Under the pieces are notes generated by a model. That model ran no database searches. It worked only from the letters and a program-made list of their open reading frames with translations, and was not told the DNA's origin. A DNA stretch of 64,000 bases from Flavitalea plasmicola (GTDB lineage Bacteria; Bacteroidota; Bacteroidia; Chitinophagales; Chitinophagaceae). A program made the translations under genes and the position numbers. Below are positions 7,598 to 13,358 of this stretch, piece after piece (position 1 is the first letter of the stretch; the number at the start of each line of letters is the position of its first letter). The stretch lies in NCBI RefSeq assembly GCF_030546645.1, contig NZ_JAUOTO010000010.1, forward strand, positions 62,001-126,000, given 5' to 3'.

Positions 7598-8692
7598 TCA
7601 GGGGATCGTAGTATCCCCCTTTTTCTTTTGGGCCACCGGTATGAACGCGCCGTCCAGGTAGTCCAGCTTCATCAAAAAGGTCTTTTTCACGGAAGTATTC
7701 CAGAAAGCCACCGCAATGGGCATGCCCACAGCCAACTGGCTGATGGTCCATATCATAAACAAACCTGCGCTGGCAAAATTCGTTCCTGAAACTTTTATCT
7801 TGCCGATGTAAAAGAAGTCAGTGCCTTTCTTCACCAGCGGGTAATAGCCATAGGAGGTCGATAGATAGATCTTTCCATGGCGGACAAACGCATATAAGTC
7901 ATCATGTTCCAGATTTTTGTTTCGCTCTGCAGGGGTATTGGCAAGGACCTCGAGGACATTCTCACCGTCCATCGGCGCGATGAATTCGGGATAGCTGGGC
8001 CGGGCGGAGGAAAAAGCGGCGAAATCTTTATAAATGCCGTCCGGAAGGCTGTCCAGCTTGTATAGAGGAATGCTTTTTTTCTCTATTTCGTCAATATCCC
8101 TGATATCGTCCATGCCAAGATAGTCTGTATTGCCTGTCTCCAGGCGGAGGCTATTATATATGAAACGACAGAAGATGCTGTCACTGGCGGCAAAGAGACG
8201 TTTCCGCAGGCTGCTTTTGAAGATGGTGCCATAGTTGATCTCCAGTAAGGTATCCAGAACGGCCAGCTTCTGATAGCTATTCTCGCTGCGCACGTACAGG
8301 AATGCCCTGATGAACGAGCAGCCTTTATGGGAGAATCGGGTAGGAAGGTCGAAAAAGCTGAACCGCTTCAGCTGCAGCAGGAGCTCCACATCACGGGCCG
8401 TTGAATCTGTCATGTCGTGCAGCAGCTGGCTGAATTGCTCGCCCAAAGGCCGCGCCGGCATGACGACCTTGTCAAAAGCCGCATTCGCGGCAATAATGCC
8501 CAGGTTGGATGTATCCACCCTGCTGTCGATGAATTGCATACGCCGGTACAGGCTATGGGATACTTTCATGGCGGGGGTGGAGAGGGCGAAGCGCACCGTG
8601 TCCGGCTTTTCCGGTGTGACGTCGTCATCCTGGGCTTGTACAGTGAGATATAGCAGGCTCACAGCCGTAAATAGGGTCCAGCGTCTAAACAT
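7598..8692 (-). CDS. Uncharacterised exported protein
   Basis: A 364-residue protein I do not recognise. The chosen start (ATG at 8692-8690) gives a good signal peptide, MFRRWTLFTAVSLLYLTVQA, cut before QDDD. An in-frame ATG at 8752 would add 20 residues ahead of it and cross the promoter region. The mature part is mixed alpha/beta with many charged residues. A hydrophobic segment near residues 295-325 (around GLFMIWTISQLAVGMPIAVA) may anchor it in the membrane, followed by a short basic tail. There is no lipobox, heme motif or hydrolase motif. It is divergent from the purine permease gene and convergent with the FtsX permease gene. Function unknown. Confidence 0.72.
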   Translation of the reverse strand: MFRRWTLFTAVSLLYLTVQAQDDDVTPEKPDTVRFALSTPAMKVSHSLYRRMQFIDSRVDTSNLGIIAANAAFDKVVMPARPLGEQFSQLLHDMTDSTARDVELLLQLKRFSFFDLPTRFSHKGCSFIRAFLYVRSENSYQKLAVLDTLLEINYGTIFKSSLRKRLFAASDSIFCRFIYNSLRLETGNTDYLGMDDIRDIDEIEKKSIPLYKLDSLPDGIYKDFAAFSSARPSYPEFIAPMDGENVLEVLANTPAERNKNLEHDDLYAFVRHGKIYLSTSYGYYPLVKKGTDFFYIGKIKVSGTNFASAGLFMIWTISQLAVGMPIAVAFWNTSVKKTFLMKLDYLDGAFIPVAQKKKGDTTIP

Positions 8693-8721
8693 AGCAGGGG
8701 TTTGGGATGAGGGTTCGACCG

Positions 8722-8745
8722 TAAAGATATTACTTTGTATCTTTA
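8722..8745. promoter_or_regulatory. Symmetric divergent promoter pair (TAAAGATA-N8-TATCTTTA)
   Basis: A perfect 8-bp inverted repeat, TAAAGATA at 8722-8729 and TATCTTTA at 8738-8745, separated by 8 bases. Each arm read outward is TATCTTTA, a 7-of-8 style match to TAnnTTTG. It therefore looks like back-to-back -7 elements for the unknown gene (start 8692, minus) and the purine permease (start 8761, plus). It could equally be an operator. The plus element ends 15 nt before the permease ATG. Confidence 0.45.
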
Positions 8746-8760
8746 GCGGCAAGCATCCGC

Positions 8761-10047
8761 ATGACAGGTACTACACCACCCACCAAAGCTTCGACCGAAA
8801 TATTAGCGGGGATATCCACCTTCCTGGCTGCCAGCTACATCATCGTCGTCAACCCATCGATCCTCAGTCAGACAGGGATGCCCTTTTCAGCCGTGCTCAC
8901 CGCCACGGTGCTGGTGTCCTGCTTCAGCAGCCTGATGATGGGGCTGTACGCACGCAACCCTATCCTGGTGGCGCCAGGTATGGGACTGAACGCCTTCTTT
9001 ACTTTCTCGGCCGTCATCGGAATGAAAGTTCCCTGGCCCGTTGCATTGGGCGCCGTCTTCTGGTCCGGCATTATTTTCCTGCTCTTATCGGTCTTCAATA
9101 TACGTACCTACATCGTGCGTGCCATTCCCCGGCCCTTGCGTTATGCCATTGCCGCCGGGATCGGCCTTTTTATCACCCTGATAGGGCTGGTGAATGCGCA
9201 TTTCATTGTCGCCAATCCCGCCACCATCGTAGGGATAGGACGGCTGACGCCGGCATTGCTGACTTTCCTGGCGGGACTGCTGATCACGGCCGGCCTGCTC
9301 CTGAAGAAAGTGAAAGGAGGCCTTTTGCTGGGCATTCTCATCACGACCTTCCTGGCCTGGCCCCTGGGGCGCTGGTGGGGGACGGAGACGCTGGTCAATG
9401 GACAGGGCGTCGTGGCAGCGCCGGATTTTAGCCTCTTGTTCAGGCTGGACCTGGTGCATTCTCTAAAATGGTCCGTAGCGCCCGTGATCTTCGCCTTTGT
9501 GTTCACGGACATGTTCGACAGCCTCTCCACTTTTGTAGGATTGGCGGAAGCCGCCGACCTGCTGGATGACAATGGGGAACCACGCCATATCCAGCGCTCC
9601 CTGATCACCGACGCAGTGGCCACTACGCTGGCGGGACTCGTGGGCTCCAGCCCGGGCACCGCCTATATCGAGTCGGCCGTAGGCATCGAGTCGGGAGGAC
9701 GGCGTGGACTGACGGCAGTGACGGCCGGACTGTTGTTCCTGCCTTTTTTATTTTTAGCGCCGCTGCTGTCCGCAGTGCCTGCCATCGCAACGGCGCCGGC
9801 CCTGGTGCTGGTGGGAGTGTTCATGATCCGCCCCGTGATAAAGATCCACTGGCTGCAGCTGGAGGAAGCCATCCCCGCTTTTCTGGCCATGGTGCTGATA
9901 CCGTTTACTTATTCTATTACCCAGGGGATCACCTGGGGCTTCCTTAGCTGGACAGTCATGCAGGTGCTGGCCGGAAAGGGACGCACCATCAGCCCCGCAT
10001 TGTGGACAATAGACCTTTTTGCCATCGCAGCATTAATACTCGCATAA
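8761..10047 (+). CDS. NCS2-family purine base permease, AzgA-like
   Basis: A 428-residue polytopic inner-membrane transporter of the NCS2 family, AzgA/GhxP branch, which imports adenine, guanine or hypoxanthine with protons. Features: an N-terminal EILAGISTFLAASYIIVVNP helix, APGMGLNAFFTF in the third to fourth helix region, DMFDSLSTFVGLAEAADLLD near residue 250, and SSPGTAYIESAVGIESGGR near 300. These are characteristic AzgA-branch signatures. Roughly 12-14 hydrophobic helices are visible. The TAA stop is followed after one base by the ATG of an exported nucleosidase, so the two are almost certainly cotranscribed and translationally coupled. The pairing suggests the imported base comes from nucleosides split outside the cytoplasm. 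A base-specific assignment is not possible from sequence alone. Confidence 0.92.
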   Translation: MTGTTPPTKASTEILAGISTFLAASYIIVVNPSILSQTGMPFSAVLTATVLVSCFSSLMMGLYARNPILVAPGMGLNAFFTFSAVIGMKVPWPVALGAVFWSGIIFLLLSVFNIRTYIVRAIPRPLRYAIAAGIGLFITLIGLVNAHFIVANPATIVGIGRLTPALLTFLAGLLITAGLLLKKVKGGLLLGILITTFLAWPLGRWWGTETLVNGQGVVAAPDFSLLFRLDLVHSLKWSVAPVIFAFVFTDMFDSLSTFVGLAEAADLLDDNGEPRHIQRSLITDAVATTLAGLVGSSPGTAYIESAVGIESGGRRGLTAVTAGLLFLPFLFLAPLLSAVPAIATAPALVLVGVFMIRPVIKIHWLQLEEAIPAFLAMVLIPFTYSITQGITWGFLSWTVMQVLAGKGRTISPALWTIDLFAIAALILA

Positions 10048-10048
10048 C

Positions 10049-10909
10049 ATGAGACCTAAGTTTTTTCTTTTACTCACGCTGACATGCATCATCTTCACCG
10101 GCGCAGGCGCGCAGGTCACGGGCATCCTGGGCGCGTTTGGCGACGAGACCACCTTATTGCTGACCCAGGTACGGCAAAAGAAAGATGTTGTCATTCAACA
10201 GATCCATTTTACACAGGGAATGCTGAGAGGACGCCCGGTGGTCGTAGCCCTTTCCGGCGTGGGCAAAGTGAACGCCGCCATCACCACCACGCTGATGCTG
10301 GAACATTTTCACCCCTCGGAAATTATTTTCACGGGCATAGCGGGGGCGGTAGACCCGGCCTTATCGCCCGGCGACCTGGTCATCGGGACGGAGGTCGGCT
10401 ATCATGATTATGGCGCCTTACGGCCGGATAGCCTGGAACATTGGCGCACGCGCAACCCGGTGACGAATGAGCAAAACCCCTTGTATTTCCCCTGCGATAC
10501 GCGATTGGTACAGTTGGCCCTCATCGCCGCAAAGACGACGAAGCTGGAAAAGACGGGCGGTGAAAAGGACAGCGTCATGCCCAGGATCATCAAAGGACGT
10601 ATTGTCACCGGCGACCAGTTCATCTCTTCGGAGACAGCCACGGCGGCGTTATACAGACAGCTGCAGGCTTCGGCCACGGAGATGGAAGGGGCCGCGGTGG
10701 CCCAGGCCTGCCGGCAGCAGCAGGTGCCATTCGTCATCATCCGCAGCATGAGCGACAAGGCGGGTAACAATGCCCATGTCGACATGGAATCCTTTTATCA
10801 CATCGCGGCGCGCAATTCCGCCAACCTGGTGATGAACATGGTGGAGATGCTGGTCCGTCCTAATGCTTCACCAACTTCACCGTCCGCACATTCCCTTTCA
10901 CGTCCATGA
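10049..10909 (+). CDS. Exported MTA/SAH nucleosidase-like purine nucleosidase
   Basis: A 286-residue member of the PNP/UDP phosphorylase superfamily, closest in pattern to methylthioadenosine/S-adenosylhomocysteine nucleosidase, which cleaves the N-glycosidic bond to free adenine. Seen: ILGAFGDE (residues 26-33), SGVGKVNAA (69-77), TGIAGAVDP (95-103), EMEGAAVAQAC (211-221) and RSMSDKAG (232-239). By comparison with E. coli MTAN, Glu213 would bind ribose and Asp236 would be the general acid. The E. coli Glu12 position reads Asp or Glu here (Gly-Asp-Glu). Unlike the cytoplasmic E. coli enzyme, residues 1-21 form a signal peptide ending TGAGAQ, so it is probably periplasmic. The gene starts one base after the AzgA-like permease stop. 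Its last 50 bases overlap the convergent gene at 10860. Specificity could be broader than MTA/SAH. Confidence 0.85.
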   Translation: MRPKFFLLLTLTCIIFTGAGAQVTGILGAFGDETTLLLTQVRQKKDVVIQQIHFTQGMLRGRPVVVALSGVGKVNAAITTTLMLEHFHPSEIIFTGIAGAVDPALSPGDLVIGTEVGYHDYGALRPDSLEHWRTRNPVTNEQNPLYFPCDTRLVQLALIAAKTTKLEKTGGEKDSVMPRIIKGRIVTGDQFISSETATAALYRQLQASATEMEGAAVAQACRQQQVPFVIIRSMSDKAGNNAHVDMESFYHIAARNSANLVMNMVEMLVRPNASPTSPSAHSLSRP

Positions 10910-13358
10910 TCTGCAGCAGGTAAATACCTTTCGGCAGGGAGCCCATATTGAATAGTATGCTTCCATCGCCCGCCGGCGCCAGGACACGCAGCTTTTGTCC
11001 TGCGGTGCTGTACAGCGTCACCGACCGGATATATTTGCCGCCAGTGATCTGCACCATGTCGGTCACGGGATTCGGTGTTACGGTTAAGGCTGGCTGCACA
11101 TCTGGCAGCCCGATGGAGTTATTATAAAGAAGGACATGGGCTGCAGAAGATCCGCCGGACACATATTCCAATGCACCGATGTCACTGGCGGGCCCCTGCG
11201 GGCGGGTGACATAGTAATAGTCATAGGACACAGTGGGACTGGCGCCATCCGATGCATCGATCAGGGGGCTGCCGGACAGCAGTTGCCAGTTGGCCGTATC
11301 CAAACCTGCCGCAGCCGCTGTCTGATACACCCGGTTGTTACTCGTGTCGCAAACCTTTGGACCCGCAGGGAAGGAGATGACATAGCGGCCTCTGCCTGCC
11401 GGATCATAGGACCGGTCGATCTCCGGCGCTACGATGACATTATGCCGGACGGTTGAACTGTCTGAGTAGAGGTCTACCACCATTCCGTAATAGTCACCGT
11501 TGTAGGACGACCGGTGTGTGCTGTAAACGGTGTTATGATAGATCTCGCTCTTACAGGGTGAGATATATCCCATTCCATGATCTATGTCGCCTACGCCATT
11601 ATTGGGCGACATCTCCACCATGCTATAGGACAGCTTATGGTGCGAGATATTATTATAGATCCTGTACCTGGCGCTGGTACCACTATATCCCGGCAGCCCG
11701 TTGAATTGGAGGGGCACCAGCCTGAGATCGTTGGCATAACTGTTGGAAAATACGTTGTTGCTGAGATCTCCCCAGCCATGTAGAACGACAAAGCCCGTAT
11801 GCGTGCCTTTAAATGACCCGTTGTCGGCGAGGATATTATCGCATTTATTGTTGATGAACCTGACATTGAAGGCCTTCATTACCACGGCCGCAGGGGCTAT
11901 ATTGCCCGTATTGGTCATATTTTTAAATGTATTGCCGACAATGCTGATATCGAGCAGCAGGTTCCAGGTGCTGTCGGCATTGTTCTGGATAAAAGTCGCG
12001 TTGGTGGCGCCATCGAAGATATTGTTATACCAGCCGATGCCATAAATGGTGGTCTTTTTTGTGCCGTCGAAATAGAGCCTGGCCCATTTATCTCCCAGGG
12101 CGAACATATAGTTATTGTTAAGGTTCCGGAACGTCCCGTTCCAGAAGGAGATGTCATGGCAATAGTTGTCTATTTGCGCAAAAATACCGGCATAATTATT
12201 CACGTTGACCCCCAGCACCTTTACGAAAGACACGCTGTCCCAGGTGCCTGAAACGAAACCCCAGGTGGTGGTGAATACGCTGCCCGGCAAAAATTTGAAT
12301 ACGATAGTGTCGGCGGATGTCCCATTGATATGATCGACGCTCAGGTGGTCCCAGGTACAGCTGCCGGAGAAGACCAGGGTGTCGCCGGCCTGGAGACTGA
12401 TGCCGGCTGCCGACAAACTACCGGGGTTGATCGTCAGGCTGGTGCCGCATCCGGGCCAGTTATAAGAAGCGTGTGTGGCAGGCGGAGGGGACGTGGTCCC
12501 CCTGTTCTTGCTGAGGAACCACTCGTACAGGTTAGGGGCTGCAGTGAAATAAGCTACAGCAGGTCCTCCCCCGGAAAAGGAGCTGGAGCTGTCAACGCTC
12601 CGGGTGATATGCCCTGTATCGTAAGCATTGATCCAGGCGCCGGCATGTCCGCCTGAAGTGTAGTAGGTTGTCCTCAGCCGGGGACTGTCCGAAGGACAGT
12701 TATACGCTTCCACCAACATCCCATGCTGAGTAGCGCCTACAGATACGGTGGCGTCATCCTTGCAATGAAAAGCCCATACGGGCAAGTGGGATGTCCCGAT
12801 GGTAGAACAATATTTAGCGTCGTTCATTTCCTGGAGGCCGGCTACGGGTGCCGCCGCTGCGATCTGCTGATCCCAGGACAGGCTGTCGGTGATAAAATTC
12901 CACGTGCCTCCGCCACCGAGGCTCAATCCTGTGAGGTAGATGCGGTTGGTATCCACATTCAGGTTGGCCTTCGCATAGGCGATCATGTTTTTCACCGGTG
13001 CGAGATCCCAGGAGCCATTGCCGCCGGCGTATTTCTTTGGGGACAGTACATAAAAGGTGGAAGTAACGCTTCCTGCGGTAAACCGCATGGAAGCGCCGTG
13101 GGCGCAGTAATAGGGGATGGTCCCGCTGACGGAGGCAATGACGGAAGGATCAGTGCCCGCCACTTCTCCGGCGCCATGTAAAAAAATGATCAACGGATGT
13201 TTGGTGGAACTGGCGGAATCCGCCGGCTTGAAAAGCAGGAAGTCCGTCGTTCCCGACCCATACACATTTGTCATCGTGCGGGCATACTGACTGCCAGGAG
13301 CTTGCGAAAGGCAGGACAATGGCAGTAAAAATAAGAGGAGGTGTAATGATTTTTTCAT
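10860..13358 (-). CDS. Type IX-secreted esterase-like hydrolase fused to a beta-helix domain
   Basis: An 832-residue secreted protein. Residues 1-19 are a signal peptide. About 25-285 form an alpha/beta-hydrolase of the PHB depolymerase/carbohydrate esterase type: oxyanion region IIFLHGAGE (57-65), nucleophile elbow TGLSLGGGG with Ser146, acid Asp201 or Asp202 (HCKDDATV), and His238 (SGGHAGAW). About 300-720 are asparagine-rich repeats typical of a right-handed parallel beta-helix (INGTSADTIVF, FINNKCDNI, NNISHHKL), the fold of pectate lyases and related polysaccharide-active proteins. The last 75 residues are a type IX sorting domain (LTVTPNPVTD to VKLVKH). The likely role is deacylation or cleavage of an extracellular polysaccharide; this is inferred. 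It precedes the LytTR/histidine-kinase operon on the same strand, 109 bp apart. Confidence 0.83.
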   Translation of the reverse strand: MKKSLHLLLFLLPLSCLSQAPGSQYARTMTNVYGSGTTDFLLFKPADSASSTKHPLIIFLHGAGEVAGTDPSVIASVSGTIPYYCAHGASMRFTAGSVTSTFYVLSPKKYAGGNGSWDLAPVKNMIAYAKANLNVDTNRIYLTGLSLGGGGTWNFITDSLSWDQQIAAAAPVAGLQEMNDAKYCSTIGTSHLPVWAFHCKDDATVSVGATQHGMLVEAYNCPSDSPRLRTTYYTSGGHAGAWINAYDTGHITRSVDSSSSFSGGGPAVAYFTAAPNLYEWFLSKNRGTTSPPPATHASYNWPGCGTSLTINPGSLSAAGISLQAGDTLVFSGSCTWDHLSVDHINGTSADTIVFKFLPGSVFTTTWGFVSGTWDSVSFVKVLGVNVNNYAGIFAQIDNYCHDISFWNGTFRNLNNNYMFALGDKWARLYFDGTKKTTIYGIGWYNNIFDGATNATFIQNNADSTWNLLLDISIVGNTFKNMTNTGNIAPAAVVMKAFNVRFINNKCDNILADNGSFKGTHTGFVVLHGWGDLSNNVFSNSYANDLRLVPLQFNGLPGYSGTSARYRIYNNISHHKLSYSMVEMSPNNGVGDIDHGMGYISPCKSEIYHNTVYSTHRSSYNGDYYGMVVDLYSDSSTVRHNVIVAPEIDRSYDPAGRGRYVISFPAGPKVCDTSNNRVYQTAAAAGLDTANWQLLSGSPLIDASDGASPTVSYDYYYVTRPQGPASDIGALEYVSGGSSAAHVLLYNNSIGLPDVQPALTVTPNPVTDMVQITGGKYIRSVTLYSTAGQKLRVLAPAGDGSILFNMGSLPKGIYLLQIMDVKGNVRTVKLVKH

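Follow-up and report, generated by a model that had tools for sequence, protein, structure and literature searches.

Two adjacent genes in a 64,000-nucleotide stretch of Flavitalea plasmicola DNA (contig NZ_JAUOTO010000010.1, positions 62,001 to 126,000; the window) probably make up a module of the cell envelope that salvages adenine in the periplasm. The first encodes an AzgA-type purine-base permease and the second an enzyme of the 5'-methylthioadenosine/S-adenosylhomocysteine (MTA/SAH) nucleosidase family that carries an export leader. The pair recurs across genomes in the same order and on the same strand, and every paired nucleosidase has such a leader. The features of the locus are as follows, in window coordinates.

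8761..10047, + strand: AzgA-type (NCS2) purine-base permease, 428 residues (PF00860, E 1.1e-39)
10049..10909, + strand: MTA/SAH-nucleosidase-family enzyme with export leader, 286 residues (PF01048, E 2.3e-49)
10049..10111, + strand: predicted signal peptide, nucleosidase residues 1-21, cleavage between Ala21 and Gln22 (hydropathy and motif script; fits the Bacteroidota Gln rule)
10145..10147, + strand: Glu33, counterpart of the catalytic Glu12 of Escherichia coli MtnN (alignment)
10400..10498, + strand: residues 118-150, clade-specific loop (alignments; cytoplasmic enzymes are shorter and unlike it there)
10679..10687, + strand: Glu211-Met212-Glu213, counterpart of E. coli 172-174 (alignment)
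10751..10756, + strand: Ser235-Asp236, counterpart of E. coli Ser196-Asp197 (alignment)

A single base, position 10048, separates the two open reading frames (ORFs), the permease stop and the next ATG standing as close as the initial annotation had reported. In a Pfam profile search the permease scored 136.7 bits with PF00860 (cut-off 27) and the nucleosidase 168.3 bits with PF01048 (cut-off 25.1), the latter being its sole Pfam match at E 1e-3 when a type IX C-terminal sorting domain was looked for. The nucleosidase also passed the cut-offs of two NCBIfam models for MTA/SAH nucleosidases (MTANs), NF004079 with 223.8 bits (cut-off 169, E 2.1e-66) and TIGR01704 with 149.5 bits (cut-off 73.8, E 1e-43), and was matched by solved MTAN structures with a best E-value of 4.8e-39. 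The permease matched no NCBIfam model at E 1e-3; against solved structures, phmmer returned AZG1 at 4.1e-57 and AZG2 at 2.6e-39.

The leader of the nucleosidase, MRPKFFLLLTLTCIIFTGAGA followed by QVTG, has the positive start, hydrophobic core and A-x-A motif ahead of Gln22 expected of the signal peptide that had been proposed for it. Leaders here and in the homologs were called as a sequence pattern, with a script for hydropathy and motifs. The N-terminus reads MRPKFFLLLTLTCIIFTGAGAQVTG, where the only Cys, residue 13, lies inside the hydrophobic core. As solved MTANs mostly align from residue 20-26 onward, the first 21 residues constitute an extension. Most signal-peptidase-I substrates of Bacteroidetes are reported to expose Gln (PMC5837995). 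By this pattern the enzyme is an MTAN with a predicted signal peptide, a feature that it shares with the exported type found in Borrelia.

To relate the leader to the permease, 102 homologous loci were tabulated. They include L062-L091, the 30 best-scoring places from a search of one family and not a random draw, as well as further regions picked by hand across genera, and identical or near-identical loci from different genomes (L084 and L086, for example) were retained. Twenty repeated locus ids, a fused gene (L010) and L035 (from genome G120) were excluded, and L028 (G234), which is interrupted by a contig end, was left out. A scan of genome contigs gave 5 loci, one short Elusimicrobia match being dropped. 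Gene starts were set mechanically, so that a number of leaders come out too long and certain overlaps (-80, -196) are artefacts.

The leader is present in 82 of the 102 loci and absent from 20. All 82 leader-bearing homologs have a small residue followed by Gln after the hydrophobic core, Gln22 being at +1 in the window. The joint occurrence of leader and NCS2 neighbour, which the initial annotation had proposed to survey among homologs, was found in 65 loci, and no leaderless homolog is paired, though 17 homologs with a leader are unpaired; the 20 without a leader are all unpaired. Unpaired here means that no AzgA gene was seen in the DNA examined, which for 17 of the 20 leaderless loci was 1.4-1.5 kb on each side and for the 17 leader-bearing loci 2-8 kb upstream. 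In all 65 paired loci the permease lies directly upstream in the same order and on the same strand. The gap is 1-12 bases in 38 of them, 19-135 in 15 and 203-476 in 3, and the remaining 9 read as overlaps, which reflect the mechanical starts.

In the genus of the window, 6 of 33 genomes, its own included, have the nucleosidase at E 1e-20, and all six keep the permease upstream on the same strand, five as separate genes and one as a fusion; loss of the pairing in close relatives, which would have told against the unit as first annotated, is not seen in the genus. The family sample yielded matches in 11 of 244 genomes, the window's own again included. Two more of these are paired (G085 and G243), four have a leader and no adjacent permease (G055, G067, G098 and G141), two are leaderless (G119 and G146), G120 is broken at its 5' end and G234 is interrupted by the contig end. 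In G120 the nucleosidase is readable only from about residue 65, and its 15 kb hold no AzgA match. The AzgA gene upstream in G243 (L036, 5676-6976) appears as two overlapping pieces in different frames, either a real break or a draft error. In G098 and G141 (loci L031 and L032), the leader-bearing nucleosidases without nearby AzgA have their leader separated from the domain by about 20 additional residues (GLLAKQESPNNYFPV... in L031), and they sit just downstream of similar genes, that of L031 matching MiaE (PF06175).

Across the phylum sample a homolog (E 1e-20) was found in 13 of 392 genomes. It is paired in the window's own genome, G343, G512 and one copy in G614, and leader-bearing and unpaired in G453. 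Leaderless, unpaired homologs account for the remaining 8 genomes and for a second copy in G614. That second copy (L052) and L101 (G910) are close to the exported group, apparently leaderless and with no adjacent AzgA in the DNA examined. The order sample gave 11 matches in 248 genomes, namely the window's own, G067, G120 and 8 leaderless ones. The family of G512 is much richer, with 144 of 181 genomes matching at E 1e-20; in at least three of these (G855, G856 and G887) the match is no better than 1e-28 to 1e-34, and a few resemble ordinary leaderless MTANs. Within its genus g342 all 30 loci examined are paired. Among the hand-picked regions, 25 of 39 usable ones are paired (3 of them repeating L013-L015) and 14 unpaired. 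In a plasmid collection 99 records match the nucleosidase, 53 of which are Borrelia or Borreliella. The Persicobacter, Cetobacterium and Mycetohabitans plasmid records, which stand outside the 102 loci, have no AzgA in the 8.7-8.8 kb examined of each, and the Persicobacter nucleosidase has a leader ending in KAQ.

The two proteins also appear to have been inherited together. Trees were built from 100 nucleosidases and 65 permeases, and over the 64 loci shared between them the patristic distances correlate with r 0.91, the highest of 999 permutations reaching 0.25. Eight Chitinophagaceae pairs, the fusion among them, share a node exclusively with the 30 g342 loci in both trees (support 0.96 and 1.0), which, along with the patchy distribution in the family (11/244), suggests, without proof, that the pair was transferred between lineages as one unit. 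The flanking genes differ between lineages (26 loci, compared by eye on mechanical ORFs) and are common only to close relatives such as L017/L018 and L125/L127. Chance adjacency was rejected, since many genomes repeat the same order, strand, short spacing and leader, the trees are concordant and the flanks vary.

In one genome, G002, the two genes have become one. At L010 (contig C191, 1230-3155, minus strand) a single frame of 641 codons runs from permease into nucleosidase, and compared with G001 and G021 both the permease stop and the signal-peptide stretch are gone. The enzyme domain starts about 11 residues past the last hydrophobic segment of the permease (TM15). The fusion comes from a single contig of 3156 bases in one draft genome that is 83% complete, it lies at the contig end and the N-terminus of its permease is missing. 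A simple frame error of the draft was judged unlikely, because the signal-peptide stretch of the relatives is absent as well. In its last permease helix the fusion has Val in place of the Asp seen in G001 (LLVIDALALLSLLL). An AlphaFold model of the fusion was poor (pLDDT 60.7, pTM 0.42), and no conclusion was drawn from it.

The side of the membrane on which the fused enzyme would lie follows from the topology of the permease, which has 15 hydrophobic segments. Averaged over 64 aligned permease sequences (one of which repeats that of the window), Lys and Arg number 2.75, 2.06, 2.66, 1.05, 2.02 and 1.80 in loops 4/5, 6/7, 8/9, 10/11, 12/13 and 14/15 and 1.77 in the N-terminus, and close to 0 in loops 1/2, 9/10, 11/12 and 13/14 and in the C-terminus. 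The pattern is less clear for loop 2/3, inside by parity with 0.5, for the outside loops 3/4 and 5/6 with about 1, and for the long outside loop 7/8, where 2.6 Lys/Arg stand beside 3.0 acidic residues; in loop 8/9 the acidic residues come to 4.2. By the positive-inside rule this distribution places the N-terminus inside, and the C-terminus is predicted to be periplasmic. AZG1 and UraA have 14 helices and both ends inside. Modelled with AlphaFold (pLDDT 81.5, pTM 0.80), the window permease shows the 14 helices of the AZG/UraA type, the NCS2 fold, together with a fifteenth at the C-terminus (412-427). Residues 4-409 of the model aligned with AZG1 (T440Y, chain 8wo7_A) in VIA-align with Z 39.6 and rmsd 2.8 over 400 residues. 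The fifteenth helix is beyond the part aligned with AZG1, an end barely tested by the aligner's rows. Given the predicted outward C-terminus and the position of the junction, the fused nucleosidase would most likely lie in the periplasm, where the leader is predicted to take the enzymes of its relatives. The fusion offers an independent argument on topology as well as a ready construct for testing direct hand-over.

The enzyme appears equipped for the chemistry of its family. Residues were compared with E. coli MtnN, and the alignments to solved MTANs agree with the outcome. E. coli Glu12, Phe151 and Ile152 correspond to Glu33, Phe191 and Ile192, Glu172-Met173-Glu174 to Glu211-Met212-Glu213, and Ser196-Asp197 to Ser235-Asp236, so that the nucleosidase motifs named in the initial annotation are borne out. 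In E. coli MtnN, Glu12 is catalytic and Ser196-Asp197 recognises adenine. The same annotation had read Gly-Asp-Glu as a hint of changed specificity, which fails, as Gly31-Asp32-Glu33 aligns with E. coli Glu10-Glu11-Glu12 and the equivalents of Glu12 and Asp197 are intact. Glu33 is Glu in all 82 leader-bearing homologs, Met212, Glu213, Ser235 and Asp236 are kept in 81 (with one gapped row), and at position 211 there are 79 with Glu and 2 with Asp. The loop at 118-150 follows the pattern D120-[YF]121-...-T134-x-N136-...-N143-P144-x2-F147-x2-D150, and among the 82 sequences D120 is conserved in 82, T134 in 81, N136 in 78, N143 in 81, P144 in 81, F147 in 79 and D150 in 80. At the position of E. 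coli Met9, Phe is found in 69 of the 82. The last 17 or so residues of the nucleosidase have no counterpart among the aligned rows.

The long ORFs on either side of the pair, at 7598-8752 and 10860-13358, are both on the opposite strand, and the unit in the window is for that reason probably of two genes only. No RNA element was found at the gathering threshold in window positions 8500-11100 or at 14 further loci. The promoter scan gave 3 promoter-like sites against 1.2 expected and the terminator scan 1 terminator-like site against 2.3 expected, none of them usefully placed for the unit. The nucleosidase gene shares its last bases (10860-10909) with the end of ORF 10860-13358, which converges on it and has a weak Por secretion tail (25.8 bits, below the cut-off of 27).

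The host genome (8.7 Mb, estimated as 100% complete) contains one recognisable copy of each partner. The window permease is its only AzgA homolog at E 1e-5, the window nucleosidase its only recognisable MTAN, and the two adjoin. PF01048 is found in five places: an inosine/guanosine purine nucleoside phosphorylase, the window enzyme, an AMP nucleosidase, a uridine-phosphorylase-like protein that falls below every NCBIfam cut-off and a futalosine hydrolase. The last (L005) has an MqnD-like gene as its neighbour, and the host probably makes menaquinone by the futalosine route. No MTA phosphorylase passed the cut-off in the host genome, where TIGR01694 tops at 90.8 bits, on the purine nucleoside phosphorylase, against a cut-off of 274.85. 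SAH hydrolase is present, giving internal SAH another route. AdoMet decarboxylase, a usual source of MTA, was not found in the host genome by a PF02675 search that matches 8 of 14 control genomes, so MTA from spermidine synthesis is not expected. Taken together, these two observations favour an outside source of substrate. Adenine deaminase is present, and Apt was not found over its cut-off in the host genome, where the weak match is PyrR.

From these elements a route can be proposed. The nucleosidase would be exported by the Sec pathway, lose its leader to signal peptidase I ahead of Gln22 and act in the periplasm, a step for which the sequence gives good support. There it would hydrolyse 5'-modified adenosines (MTA, 5'-deoxyadenosine and SAH) to adenine and the sugar, as its family and retained residues suggest. 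The adenine would be imported through the inner membrane by the AzgA-type permease and, in view of the adenine deaminase and the lack of an Apt over cut-off, would be deaminated in the cytoplasm to hypoxanthine. With SAH hydrolase present and AdoMet decarboxylase not found, the substrate is probably mainly extracellular. Of the exported scavenging unit in the initial annotation, the sequences support the export, the tie to an AzgA/NCS2 permease and the retention of both among relatives, but not the hint of altered specificity. With four of the 11 family genomes having a leader-bearing enzyme and no adjacent permease, the linkage does not hold everywhere.

Several points weigh against this proposal. 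AzgA proteins can prefer hypoxanthine or guanine, which would break the import step as stated. The 17 leader-bearing homologs with no AzgA in the 2-8 kb upstream imply that export is possible without linkage. Locus counts are not independent, owing to common descent, and for leader against pairing the Fisher test (p 1.9e-11) is descriptive only, the loci being related. Asp replaces the equivalent of Glu172 in the branch that comprises G001, G021 and the fusion. The absence of Apt is weak, as 13 of the 14 control genomes match and only 6 pass the cut-off. The host also has an adenosine deaminase (L138, 1480-2571, minus strand; above the TIGR01430 cut-off) whose N-terminus looks like a leader ending in ...RPAPCQS, which may make it a second extracytoplasmic purine enzyme.

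Other explanations share much of this evidence. The pair might instead recycle the cell's own waste, with 5'-deoxyadenosine from radical-SAM (S-adenosylmethionine) and other SAM enzymes, and MTA, leaving the cell, being cleaved in the periplasm and the adenine retaken. In the genome the window enzyme is the only recognisable MTAN and no MTA phosphorylase passes its cut-off, which would leave the cytoplasm with no recognisable enzyme for these compounds. In a cyanobacterium, loss of MTA phosphorylase is reported to cause excretion of MTA and 5'-deoxyadenosine (PMC8102628), and own waste is for that reason a serious rival source. We nevertheless consider recycling unlikely, because most relatives do without the enzyme, a homolog being present in so few genomes of the phylum sample (13/392), and because SAH hydrolase and the missing AdoMet_dc would lower the internal supply. 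As a further possibility, the nucleosidase might dock on the outward end of the permease, or be fused to it, hand adenine over directly and be the sole route for 5'-deoxyadenosine and MTA. Such a relay at the outer face of the inner membrane seems rather improbable; if it were true, a housekeeping step for SAM by-products would have moved out of the cytoplasm.

A changed substrate, such as adenosine or another 5'-substituted nucleoside, would still make the pair a system for salvaging purine bases. The region of E. coli MtnN equivalent to loop 118-150 lies next to the 5' site of the other subunit, and it is possible that the loop, which exceeds its cytoplasmic counterparts in length and is conserved across the leader-bearing group, shifts the preferred 5' group; the Phe at the Met9 position points the same way. 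Against this, the role given to the loop is that of its E. coli counterpart and not a computed one, and the enzyme scores above the MTAN equivalog cut-offs and retains the residues for catalysis and adenine recognition, so that we hold a changed substrate to be a minority possibility. The leader, being a prediction from a sequence pattern, might also be non-functional, with both proteins on the cytoplasmic side and linked only by shared purine regulation. It would seem very improbable that this is so, when a leader with the Gln motif is present in all 65 paired loci, none of the 20 leaderless homologs is paired and in the fusion the enzyme follows TM15 at the end predicted to lie outside.

MTAN is generally regarded as a housekeeping enzyme of the cytoplasm, and the bacterial AzgA/NCS2 purine permeases include carriers of adenine and of hypoxanthine/guanine. 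The window enzyme resembles cytoplasmic MtnN/Pfs in family, catalytic residues and NCBIfam equivalog models; the 20 leaderless homologs differ from it in having no AzgA nearby (within about 1.4-1.5 kb on each side for 17 of them), and the cytoplasmic enzymes in having a shorter 118-150 loop in the aligned rows. Similarly, the permease resembles plant AZG1 and AZG2 (Z 39.6 and 36.2 with AZG1 chains, 34% identity over about 400 residues), but differs from AZG1 in its extra C-terminal helix and in being paired with, and once fused to, a nucleosidase. The closest parallel to the exported enzyme is in Borrelia burgdorferi, where Bgp (BB0588) and MtnN (BBI06) are described as signal-peptide MTANs active on MTA (PMC7557402), with Bgp on the surface and binding glycosaminoglycans, and the cytoplasmic MTAN Pfs is present too. 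Its authors suggest that the exported enzymes supply transportable adenine (PMC7557402). Like Bgp and MtnN, the window enzyme is an MTAN with a predicted signal peptide; unlike the situation in Borrelia, it is the only recognisable MTAN of its genome, and it adjoins an AzgA permease, the comparison being one of proteins rather than of gene neighbourhoods. The biochemical idea of an exported MTAN that supplies adenine is hence not new, and the initial annotation's view of a little-described arrangement has to be narrowed to the linked unit, since exported MTANs are known in Borrelia. No account of the linkage of an exported MTAN to AzgA, of its spread in Bacteroidota or of the fusion was found in the literature covered, which mostly left subscription papers outside its scope.

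Judging by the distribution of the pair, harvesting of adenine from 5'-modified nucleosides, whether released by neighbours or by the cells themselves, may be practised by many Bacteroidota and particularly by those in the family of G512. This opens the testable question of which organisms consume extracellular MTA and 5'-deoxyadenosine.

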